A stretch of 64,000 nt of DNA, from NCBI GenBank assembly GCA_027297435.1, contig JAPUIA010000115.1, positions 1-64,000 of the forward strand. The letters are read 5' to 3'. How positions within the stretch are numbered: the stretch's first letter is position 1; each line of letters starts with the position of its first letter. The notes under the pieces were generated by a model. That model did no database searches. It saw nothing but the letters and a program-made list of their open reading frames with translations, and was not told where the DNA came from. This stretch comes from Gammaproteobacteria bacterium (GTDB lineage Bacteria; Pseudomonadota; Gammaproteobacteria; Pseudomonadales; Azotimanducaceae). Below are positions 89 to 5,943 of the stretch, piece by piece. The translations under genes were made by a program, and so were the position numbers.

Positions 89-175
89 TGGTGCCTGGGG
101 AGAGACTCGAACTCTCACTTAGTTACCTAAACCAGATTTTGAGTCTGGCGCGTCTACCAATTTCGCCACCCAGGC
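89..175 (-). tRNA. tRNA-Leu (anticodon CAA)
   Basis: Minus strand reads GCCTGGGTGGCGAAATTGGTAGACGCGCCAGACTCAAAATCTGGTTTAGG...GAGTTCGAGTCTCTCCCCAGGCACCA; acceptor pairing, CTCAAAA anticodon loop, class II variable arm, T-loop and encoded CCA. Confidence 0.95.
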
Positions 176-268: not shown

Positions 269-296
269 TTGTACAAAGCGTCCAGCGCATTAGAAT
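269..296 (+). promoter_or_regulatory. sigma70-like promoter, probably ancestral queA promoter
   Basis: TTGTAC (269-274), 16-bp spacer, TAGAAT (291-296); lies just upstream of the left 19-bp repeat. Confidence 0.45.
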
Positions 297-604
297 GCGC
301 ACGCTCAATCATTGGTCGGTAAAGCCAAAAAGCCTCGTCTTAGTTTATATCGAAATATGCCCGGTAGCCTTGGGAAACGTGGCTCAGAGGCTGGAATGGA
401 TACTGGTTTATATTCGTTGATATTGGGCAGTATCGACCAGTTTCGTTGGCAATTCCGTTGGCAAAAAAGAATCCGTTAATCGTTTGATTTGCCCAACCCG
501 GCGAGTACACCAGGGACCAAATGGACAGCGCTTGCTCACGACTGAATAGGAAATCACCTACAGACTGACTCCGGCATTGAGACCACCGCCTAACGAGAAG
601 GCAG

Positions 605-630
605 CCCCGCTTCGGCGGGGTTTTCTTTTC
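605..630 (+). terminator. rho-independent terminator
   Basis: CCCCGC-TTCG-GCGGGG followed by TTTTCTTTTC. Confidence 0.75.
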
Positions 631-977
631 TACCGCTTTCTGTCGCGCCCCATCTCTTCACAGACCCTGCCGTAAAGATAGACAACAGTACGGATTGTCG
701 AGCGGACCTCATAATCGTTCATTGTGCGCACTCCTCGAACCAGGGCTCCTTCTTCTTTAGATGTCCCCCACACCTTGTCTAACCGCTCCATGATTTCGAT
801 GAACTCGGGTCTCAGTTCTTCTGGCAGATCGTTTTCCGGGGTTATGTGGCACAAGTTGTCGACTGCCACGCTTTCAAGGCATTGAGCGGGCGTACCGTCT
901 TGCGTTGCAAGATAAGATACTGCTCTGGATAGCTGCTCTGCTCCATACGCATAAGCGTTTATTGGGCGTTTTGTCAT
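630..977 (-). CDS. hypothetical protein (115 aa), accessory
   Basis: Intact ORF within the element; 4-bp overlap with the next minus-strand ORF suggests an operon. Confidence 0.5.
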   Translation of the reverse strand: MTKRPINAYAYGAEQLSRAVSYLATQDGTPAQCLESVAVDNLCHITPENDLPEELRPEFIEIMERLDKVWGTSKEEGALVRGVRTMNDYEVRSTIRTVVYLYGRVCEEMGRDRKR

Positions 978-1192
978 TGACTACGAACGAAGAACCAGCC
1001 TTCCTGCCGGCAGTAAGCACAACCCTCGCCAGCACAGTCCAAGCATTGCGCCCAGTCGTCAGTTGCTAGGGCACTTCCGAATACGCCGTCACACCGTTTA
1101 CCACCGATGTTTTCGCTACATTGCTGGTTGATTGAAGTGGCGTTTCGGTTGAACTTTCCGCATTTGGTGCACACGGCTACGGGTAGTTTCAC
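974..1192 (-). CDS. small cysteine-rich zinc-ribbon-like protein
   Basis: 72 aa with CTKC, CLDCAGEGCAYC cysteine pairs. Confidence 0.5.
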   Translation of the reverse strand: MKLPVAVCTKCGKFNRNATSINQQCSENIGGKRCDGVFGSALATDDWAQCLDCAGEGCAYCRQEGWFFVRSQ

Positions 1193-1353
1193 GTTCGAGT
1201 CTTTTGAATGCTGGCGTACCGAAGGATACCAAACTGTATTGCGACTGAGCGGGATATGGTGTGTACTTAGGCAGCCCGCGCGAATGGCCGACTAACCCGC
1301 CTTAAGAAGAATGGCTTACGATTCGGGCTGGGTGCTTAACTCCATTAAATTAA

Positions 1354-1378
1354 CCCTCGCTTCGGCGGGGGTTTTCTT
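1354..1378 (+). terminator. rho-independent terminator
   Basis: CCCTCGC-TTCG-GCGGGGG followed by a TTTTCTTT tract. Confidence 0.6.
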
Positions 1379-1412
1379 TGCCTGGGCTACGCCTAACCCA
1401 AGGAGACTAACC

Positions 1413-1544
1413 ATGTCTAATCGCAGAAGAGACATCGACCGAAAGAAAAAGCTCGCACGGCGCGAACGTATGCGTGAGCACTACCGTCGCCAGGCCTTAA
1501 TGGAGGAGATAGAAAATGTCAGAAATAATCGAACACGAACCTGA
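1413..1544 (+). CDS. small basic hypothetical protein (43 aa)
   Basis: ATG at 1413 preceded by AAGGAGACTAACC; MSNRRRDIDRKKKLARRERMREHYRRQALMEEIENVRNNRTRT. Confidence 0.4.
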   Translation: MSNRRRDIDRKKKLARRERMREHYRRQALMEEIENVRNNRTRT

Positions 1545-1656
1545 GCTTCTTGACGCCGTTCTAATCCCTGTGGCGCGTTTCCACGGCCCGACCCGGTAAT
1601 CCTAGAAACGAGGTAAAGAAGAGCGGTCCCACTAGACAGGGAGCGATGACCGGTTA

Positions 1657-1746
1657 TGGCCGTTCGCGTCGTTTGTGCAGGTAAATCGAGTGACGGCTAT
1701 GCGAACCGTTGCTGACAAAGCCGTTGAAAGCGGCCAAACGTCGCTA
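1657..1746. repeat. 90-bp imperfect direct repeat, copy 1
   Basis: Ungapped match to 2638-2727, 75/90 identical by hand count; TGGCCG...CGGCCA inverted ends. Confidence 0.85.
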
Positions 1747-1747
1747 A

Positions 1748-2599
1748 GTGCCCTTTGCAGACACTGAGCCTAGATGCAACTATGGATGGAAATCTGGCAG
1801 GAGCGACCCTCAAGTGGAAGACAATCTCGAATTTGACGATGAAACCTCCCGCTTAGTAGAGGAGTTCAACAGCTCTCAAGGGGCGATAGAGAGGCGTCGC
1901 AAGATTATTGCTGCGTTAGCATTGCAAGCCGGTGAAGCAATCCTTGACGTTGGTTCCGGACCTGGCAATCAAATATTCGAAATGTCCTCGGTTGTCGGCC
2001 CTGCCGGCCGCGTTCAAGGTTTAGATCCAGCCGAAAGTGCGATTGCGATTGCTTCCAGACGTTGTTCAGGGTTATCCAATGTACATTTCGAACTTGGCGA
2101 TGTGGCACAACTGCCGTTTGAGGACGGAACTTTCGATGCCGTAATGTCTAGCCAGGTCTTCGAGTACCTAGAGAATGTAGGTGGCGGGCTGCAAGAGATA
2201 TATCGTGTACTCCGGCCAGGAGGTCGAGTGCTGATCCACGACACTGATTGGGGTGCGCTGCTATGGCGATCCTCTGATGCACAGCGGATGGCGCGAGTAA
2301 TGGGAGTGTTTGATGGCCACCTGGCAGATCCATATCTGCCTCAGATTCTCGCCCCCAAACTCCGCGATGCAGGATTCAGCGATATCAAAGTAGAGCCCAT
2401 CGTTCAAGTGGAGACTAAATTTGATCCTGGTAGTGTCAGTGGCGTTCTGATGAAGTTTGTAGTCGGATACGTTGAGTCCCAGGGTGTTTCTGCATCAGAA
2501 GCGAGTGCCTGGAAGGAAGACCTCGAGAATCTCGGTGCTACCCGCGACTATTTCTTCAGTTCGAACGAGTACATGTTTACTGGAAGAAAGCCTGGTTAG
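1748..2599 (+). CDS. class I SAM-dependent methyltransferase (Methyltransf_11/UbiE-like)
   Basis: Motif I ILDVGSGPG; later LPFEDGTFDAVMSSQVFEYL and EIYRVLRPGGRVLIHD. Confidence 0.85.
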   Translation: MPFADTEPRCNYGWKSGRSDPQVEDNLEFDDETSRLVEEFNSSQGAIERRRKIIAALALQAGEAILDVGSGPGNQIFEMSSVVGPAGRVQGLDPAESAIAIASRRCSGLSNVHFELGDVAQLPFEDGTFDAVMSSQVFEYLENVGGGLQEIYRVLRPGGRVLIHDTDWGALLWRSSDAQRMARVMGVFDGHLADPYLPQILAPKLRDAGFSDIKVEPIVQVETKFDPGSVSGVLMKFVVGYVESQGVSASEASAWKEDLENLGATRDYFFSSNEYMFTGRKPG

Positions 2600-2637
2600 A
2601 GCCTCGTATCCGAGGAAGCCGCTCAAACTTCCGCTTG

Positions 2638-2727
2638 TGGCCGTTAGCGTCGATTGTGCGGGTTAATCGAGCGTCAGCTAAGCGAACCGTTGCCGACGAA
2701 TTCGCTGGAAGCGGCCAAAGGTCGCTA
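2638..2727. repeat. 90-bp imperfect direct repeat, copy 2
   Basis: Matches 1657-1746; ends at the start of the integrase remnant. Confidence 0.85.
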
Positions 2728-3413
2728 TGAAAGACGGTATCAAAAAGGGGCTCGTCACGCGCAACGTTGTTGAATTGGTCGATGCGCCGAAAATCAGACG
2801 CAAGAGAGTTGAAGCTTTCGACGCTGAGCACAATCAGCGGTTGGTCGATCTATTCAGTGGGGAGATGAAAACGATCGTCGCGCTCGCTCTCACCACGGGA
2901 ATGAGGCGCGGCGAGATTGCCGGTCTCAAGTAGGATGCTGTCGGAGATGGTGTGCTCGAGATCAAGCGCACGCTGACCCAGACAAGGGAGGGCTTGATTC
3001 TGCGGGACGAGCCGAAAACCGAAGAGAGCTACAGAACGATCACGCTAACCAAGGTGATGGTGAAGGCGCTGCTTAGCCATCGAGCCAAGCAGGCACAAGA
3101 AAAACTTGTCGCGGGCAACTCGTATCGAGACCAGGGATTTGTTTTTGCCCACTACAATGGGGAGCCAGTCAAACCTCCACAGATCACCCATATGTTTTCC
3201 GAGGGAGTGAAGGGAACCGATTTCCATCTTACGTTTCACGGATTGCGCCATTGCCATGTATCACAACTCATCGCTGCGAACGTGAACATCAAGACCATTC
3301 AAAAACGGGTAGGGCACGCGAACATCAAGACAACACTAGACACTTACGGGCACCTGCTTCCTGGTATGGATGAGGCAGCGGCTGAGGCCGTCGAGGGCAC
3401 AATCTCACTGTAA
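2727..3413 (+). pseudogene. tyrosine recombinase/phage integrase remnant
   Basis: Two ORFs in the same frame (2727-2933, 2952-3413) separated by TAG at 2931-2933; TGMRRGEIAGLK*...FHGLRHCHVSQLIAANVNIKTIQKRVGHANIKTTLDTYGH catalytic motifs; N-terminal arm-binding region missing. Confidence 0.85.
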
Positions 3414-3484
3414 TGTTGGCACCACGTTGGCAAGATCGGTGCAAAGCCAGGTAACATAAGGCGTTTCATTGGTCGGTAAAGCCA

Positions 3485-5943
<2,459 letters not shown>

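Follow-up and report, generated by a model that had tools for sequence, protein, structure and literature searches.

The window analysed here comprises 64,000 nucleotides of a gammaproteobacterium of the Azotimanducaceae (contig JAPUIA010000115.1, positions 1 to 64,000 of the forward strand). Near its start queA lies 3.2 kb from a promoter that is close in front of it in related bacteria, and the intervening DNA is bounded by a direct repeat and contains part of an integrase. This raises the question of what was inserted, into what kind of site, and with what consequence for the expression of queA.

The interval between the repeats

The sequence TCATTGGTCGGTAAAGCCA occurs as exact forward-strand copies at 309-327 and 3466-3484. 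A sequence-only reading of this DNA had described the repeat as perfect, and this is borne out; no further copy with up to two mismatches was found in the whole 4,223,078-bp genome. As also claimed, queA begins with a GTG, at 3485, immediately behind the right copy. The queA frame is open from 3485 to 4516 on the forward strand (PF02547, E 9e-126), and its end is overlapped by tgt (4509-5615, forward strand, PF01702). On the left flank is a gene for tRNA-Leu(CAA) (89-175, reverse strand, located by ARAGORN), which is next to queA in many relatives. We note that a 20-bp, 90% identical copy of the 5′ end of tRNA-Leu(CAA) is present at 214-233, possibly the trace of an earlier insertion or of a tRNA duplication.

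The repeats, which have the position of att cores (attL on the left and attR on the right), bound both ends of the interval, and the integrase stop at 3413 adjoins the repeat at 3466. The remnant of this tyrosine integrase is encoded at 2727-3413 on the forward strand. It retains the motifs MRRGE, HGLRH, GH and Y of the catalytic domain (PF00589), and represents the C-terminal 230 residues of a protein of 367 amino acids that is intact in a member of another genus of the family (G412), with 86% identity over those 230 residues. The alignment covers only residues 138-367 of the G412 integrase, i.e. residues 1-137 are missing here, and no remnant of the N-terminus is present elsewhere in the window, nor a second close integrase in this genome. 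The remaining frame is interrupted by an in-frame TAG at 2931-2933. With the N-terminal 137 amino acids gone and the TAG at 2931, the element should be unable to excise by itself, and its earlier description as decayed was correct. The junctions and the TAG are read from one draft assembly, in which the contig starts at base 1 of the window. We interpret 309-3484 as a decayed integrative element for which the leader of queA was the attB, the point of insertion falling, as judged from the sequence, exactly between the promoter and the start codon of queA.

Comparison with relatives reveals the site in its unoccupied form. The integrase is absent from genomes G001-G008 and G014. In G004, which belongs to the same genus, the order is tRNA-Leu, TAGAAT, a single copy of the repeat and queA, i.e. 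an empty site; about 85 bp lead from the tRNA-Leu to TATTGGTCGGTAAAGCCAA, which is followed by queA with a TTG start, and TAGAAT is at the matching position. The integrase-free G005, G001 and G014 also carry a single core copy directly before queA. Removal of the element with one repeat had been predicted to leave a compact arrangement of promoter and queA, and this is the arrangement of G004. A search for such empty sites was the check proposed with the sequence-only reading, and its outcome is in favour of that reading. We also observed other inserts of 5-6 kb that split tRNA-Leu(CAA) from queA in G005 (locus L108, 3660-10000) and in G014 (L109, 590-5797). Seen from queA, these sit beyond its promoter, and the interval between tRNA-Leu and queA looks like a hotspot for insertion.

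The site is occupied in G412. A scan of 207 genomes of the family found a close integrase in two, so that its presence at the site varies. The integrase gene of G412 ends 140 bp before TTGGTCGGTAAAGCCA, which is followed by the GTG of queA. On another contig of G412 there is a second exact core, about 600 bp from tRNA-Leu(CAA), followed by an arm-like pair of the kind described below. Related integrases thus occupy one 16-bp site before queA in two genera. ORFs resembling tatB and tatC, the tatC-like one abnormal at its C-terminus, occur at L121 1-1356 of G412, a few kb beyond the core copy, and point to a rearrangement or an assembly join.

Each end of the element in the window carries, inward of the 19-bp copy, a pair of GTTGGCA heptamers with a spacing of 11-12 bp, and such a pair is also present at the integrase end of the G412 element. 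The left pair is at 445-463 (heptamers at 445-451 and 457-463) and the right pair at 3415-3432 (3415-3421 and 3426-3432), directly behind the integrase stop, all on the forward strand. They resemble the arm-type sites of integrases, and we regard them as candidates for this function. The segment 404-464 matches the integrase-adjacent end in G412 in reverse complement, with 87% identity, and 3401-3472 (including the last codons of the integrase) gives a 78% match to the left end in G412, again in reverse. The arm block thus has opposite orientations relative to the integrase in the two elements, and the core is always in the orientation of the host. The core halves TTGG and CCAA are palindromic, so that insertion in either orientation is conceivable. 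The inverted arm blocks lie at L106 1677-1832, L121 3771-3860, and 404-464 and 3401-3484 of the window.

The interior contains two reverse-strand ORFs of unknown function, one of 115 amino acids (630-977) with no Pfam or PHROG match and a cysteine-rich one of 72 (974-1192) with weak PHROG matches only. These are followed by a forward-strand ORF for a SAM-dependent methyltransferase (1748-2599, Pfam PF13847/PF08241, E ~1e-22), which is located between two forward-strand copies of a dispersed repeat of about 115 bp (1650-1770 and 2631-2729). The GTG at 1748 is inside the first copy, so the real start is probably downstream. The second copy lacks part of its 3′ end at the junction with the integrase; the break in the integrase coincides with the end of this copy, and other copies extend about 20 bp further. 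This genome carries about twelve copies of the repeat (TGGCCGTT...GAAGCGGCCAAACGTCGCTAYGTGCCC) and G412 one partial copy, and 56 other relatives have none at E 1e-6. Several copies flank individual genes, among them methyltransferases and a dehydrogenase, in a cassette-like arrangement (e.g. loci L236 (G000:C20), L238 and L239). The methyltransferase gene lies between two of these repeats, one of them fused into the integrase, and the interior is therefore composite. The sequence-only reading had described a small element with an integrase remnant; the remnant is present, but the ~115-bp repeats around the methyltransferase had gone unnoticed, as had the tRNA-Leu(CAA) gene and the GTTGGCA pairs. 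Pfam and PHROG recognized no conjugation or mobilization genes among the interior ORFs tested, and no homology of the cargo to G412 was detectable beyond the arms and the integrase.

A conserved motif in the queA leader

The 19-bp repeat does bound a decayed element, but it is more than an att core. What had been missed is that it includes a conserved motif of the queA leader, TTGGT-CGGTAAA-GCCA(G), at 3469-3485 on the forward strand, with the potential to form a stem of 5 bp and a loop of 7 nt that touches the start codon. The corresponding 16-mer of the left copy is at 312-327 (forward strand). The sequence TTGGTCNGTNNAGCCA abuts the start codon of queA in 36 of about 96 genomes of the family, representing 12 genera, where the count includes TTGGT-C-N-GT-N-N-A-GCCA or near forms directly before the start codon (examples are at L107:2410, L108:10001, L126 and L153). 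Averaged over pairs from different genera, column identity is 0.90 at the 17 positions, compared with 0.26 in the 5′ flank and 0.25 expected by chance. It is this conserved motif that the integrase appears to target.

The position of the motif relative to the start of translation seems to be the feature that is kept. In genomes G448 and G020 of genus g13, a start taken right behind the motif gives an in-frame N-terminal extension of the protein. In two loci of genus g32 (L111 of G156 and L165 of G302) an ORF of four codons starts right behind the motif, with a stop that overlaps the start codon of queA (ATGA), which suggests translational coupling with queA. Both cases were read by eye. Three genomes of g164, another genus, instead have the motif shortly behind a tRNA-Leu gene with no hexamer resembling a −10 element, favouring a role in the RNA over one as a promoter operator.

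A loose pattern for the motif occurs in 30 of 369 genomes of the class, and among the loci read only that of the window itself precedes queA. By eye, it was absent from the queA loci read in other families of the order. Rfam gave no match over the leader at E values up to 5, and no description of the motif was found in the open-access literature on queA with integrases or on control by the queA leader. The conserved 16-base site may be an undescribed control element for queuosine synthesis. Short 5′ leaders of queuosine genes are familiar as preQ1 riboswitches, and anticodon-arm mimics at the start codon as thrS-type leaders. Compared with a preQ1 riboswitch the motif is far shorter and has no Rfam match, and it is a putative element.

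Could it act as a hairpin? The two halves of the motif are able to pair (5 bp, 7-nt loop, at the start codon), and pairing occurs in 95.8% of cells compared with 91.3 for shuffled sequences, of which 1/500 were as high. The covariation score is 0.172 compared with 0.113 (6/500), with a two-sided change in one pair only. Folding z-scores are −1.4 and −2.2 for two 17-mers, and near zero in longer context. Altogether this is only suggestive of RNA structure. A longer hairpin that would take in all of the start codon was rejected, since pairing was found in 24 and 26 of the 36 leaders where 23.8 and 25.1 were expected for independent columns.

The 5+7 geometry and an invariant G-U at loop positions 3 and 4 (G34 and U35, in 36/36 leaders) recall the anticodon arm of the queuosine tRNAs, and two leaders have the loop CTGTTAA. 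TGT requires U33-G34-U35 in the loop. Position 33 is G in 30 leaders, A in three, U in two and C in one, and the absence of U33 from 34 of the 36 weakens the idea that the motif is a substrate for TGT. TGT does act on short hairpins derived from tRNA-Tyr (PMC13416341). It might be imagined that the attB is an undescribed cis-acting RNA hairpin of queA (16-17 nt, with a C-N-G-U-N-N-A loop like that of an anticodon arm, at the start codon) to which QueA or TGT binds, thereby tuning the synthesis of queuosine, and that it has been co-opted by the integrase in the way that tRNA anticodon loops are. We consider this full proposal improbable.

Promoter and expression of queA

The promoter proposed for queA was TTGTAC-N16-TAGAAT, and its two hexamers have fared differently. 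The −10 element TAGAAT (291-296, forward strand) is at the same place in G004, G005 and G001. Moreover, a hexamer matching TATAAT in at least 5/6 positions (with forms such as TAGAAT, TACAAT and TATAGT) is present 8-24 nt upstream in 24 of the 36 queA leaders, where shuffled sequences gave 1.8. This part of the claim is thus supported by comparison. The −35 element TTGTAC (269-274, forward strand) is weak, with a 3/6 match to TTGACA, and a generic promoter scan makes no call.

This promoter is now 3.2 kb upstream of queA, behind two terminator-like hairpins on the forward strand, i.e. directed towards queA, at 603-622 and 1352-1373. The hairpins had been reported previously and were found again in our scan, but such sites are no commoner than in shuffled sequence (four found, shuffle mean 4.0). 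The claim that queA was disconnected from its native promoter holds structurally, and the arrangement of the sequence supports the loss of this promoter to queA; it does not follow that the gene is silent. The end of the element next to queA has a candidate −10 in both genera, TAACAT in the window (3452-3457, forward strand, a weak 4/6 match) and TACAAT in G412, 20 bp before the leader motif.

Given the element, it could be argued that the insertion silenced queA and that the operon is no longer expressed, and the two hairpins between promoter and gene are in keeping with this. Yet both queA and tgt are fully open frames with strong family scores, the leader motif and the reading frame are intact behind the element at attR, and there are the candidate −10 sequences just noted. 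Furthermore, dusA islands and SXT are known to supply promoters, dusA- and prfC-specific elements providing replacements for those that they displace (PMC8409611), and dusA islands keep promoter-like sequences (PMC4482086). We therefore think silencing rather unlikely. By analogy with the dusA and prfC elements, and with the candidate −10 sequences at the element ends, replacement of the promoter by the end of the element is a fair expectation.

Origin of the arrangement and related elements

We consider it very probable that 309-3484 is a defective integrative element that arose by recombination of attP with attB at the queA leader and later decayed. A tyrosine integrase related to that of G412 would have recombined its attP with the 16-bp leader motif as attB, thereby duplicating the motif. 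The attL side would keep the native promoter, and the attR side the queA leader and start codon. Cargo may have been gained or lost afterwards, including the methyltransferase now present between the ~115-bp repeats. A rearrangement would then have joined one of these repeats to the integrase, with deletion of its N-terminal part, and the TAG would break what remained, leaving an element no longer able to excise itself. On this scheme any transcription of queA would begin at a promoter within the element's right end or at one lying further upstream. A simple shared element does not account for the arm pairs, which are flipped between the window element and G412.

Duplication of the queA leader and promoter region by the host, with a fragment of integrase between the copies by accident, would give a similar repeat, and because the 16-mer is the host leader motif itself it could have been copied without an integrase. 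This would leave unexplained why an intact homologous integrase is found at exactly the same queA motif in G412, why integrase-free relatives hold one copy only, and why arm-like repeats lie inside both copies; we judge it very unlikely. It might also be supposed that tRNA-Leu(CAA), 134 bp away, is the true site of the integrase and that the repeats at queA are incidental. The Pseudomonas islands PFGI-2 and T-PAI use a tRNA-Leu beside tgt-queA (PMC2647930), and the 5′ tRNA-Leu fragment at 214-233 would be consistent with such use. But the right end of the element has no duplicated tRNA-Leu sequence. What is duplicated is the leader of queA, and it is the leader, not the tRNA, that the integrase of G412 adjoins. 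We find this scarcely credible, and retain integration at the queA leader.

The element itself is of a known kind, and it is the target that is new. Among the closest parallels are the integrases and islands associated with dusA (Farrugia 2015, PMC4482086; IMEVchUSA3, PMC8409611), where a tyrosine-integrase element is likewise inserted at the 5′ end of a gene for tRNA modification, with short direct repeats (21 bp in that case), the gene kept open and its promoter replaced by the element. Here the target is queA and the site is its leader rather than the 21-bp site of dusA. The attB precedes the start codon in the leader and the protein stays as it was, in contrast to dusA, where the elements exchange the N-terminus. 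With only 3.2 kb the present element is also small, and it is decayed. The SXT/R391 ICE likewise inserts at the 5′ end of a gene, prfC, and supplies a new promoter (PMC8409611), but SXT is large and conjugative and nothing conjugative was found in this interior. PFGI-2 and T-PAI share the neighbourhood of tRNA-Leu beside queA-tgt (PMC2647930), but have the end of the tRNA-Leu as attB, with the promoter lying between that site and the queA leader used here.

The list of integration sites gains the leader of a tRNA-modification gene, and two genera show a promoter separated from its coding sequence, with empty sites available as a reference. The more interesting part is the conserved leader motif that serves as the attachment site, as a short candidate for control of the queA-tgt operon in these bacteria.

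Viral contigs contained no relatives of the integrase, and among named genome contigs there were matches only to JACZXA010000089.1 (the G412 record, a Proteobacteria MAG) and to a 30% identical relative in an Acidobacteria MAG. The G412 homologue matches phrog_1 (E 5e-70) and the integrases of PDB entries 3nkh and 6en0/6emy (E 1e-14 to 1e-9), the last pair of which we take to be the Int of Tn1549. Insertion by elements of the Tn916/Tn1549 type is little site-specific, whereas in the present case two genera share one 16-bp site.
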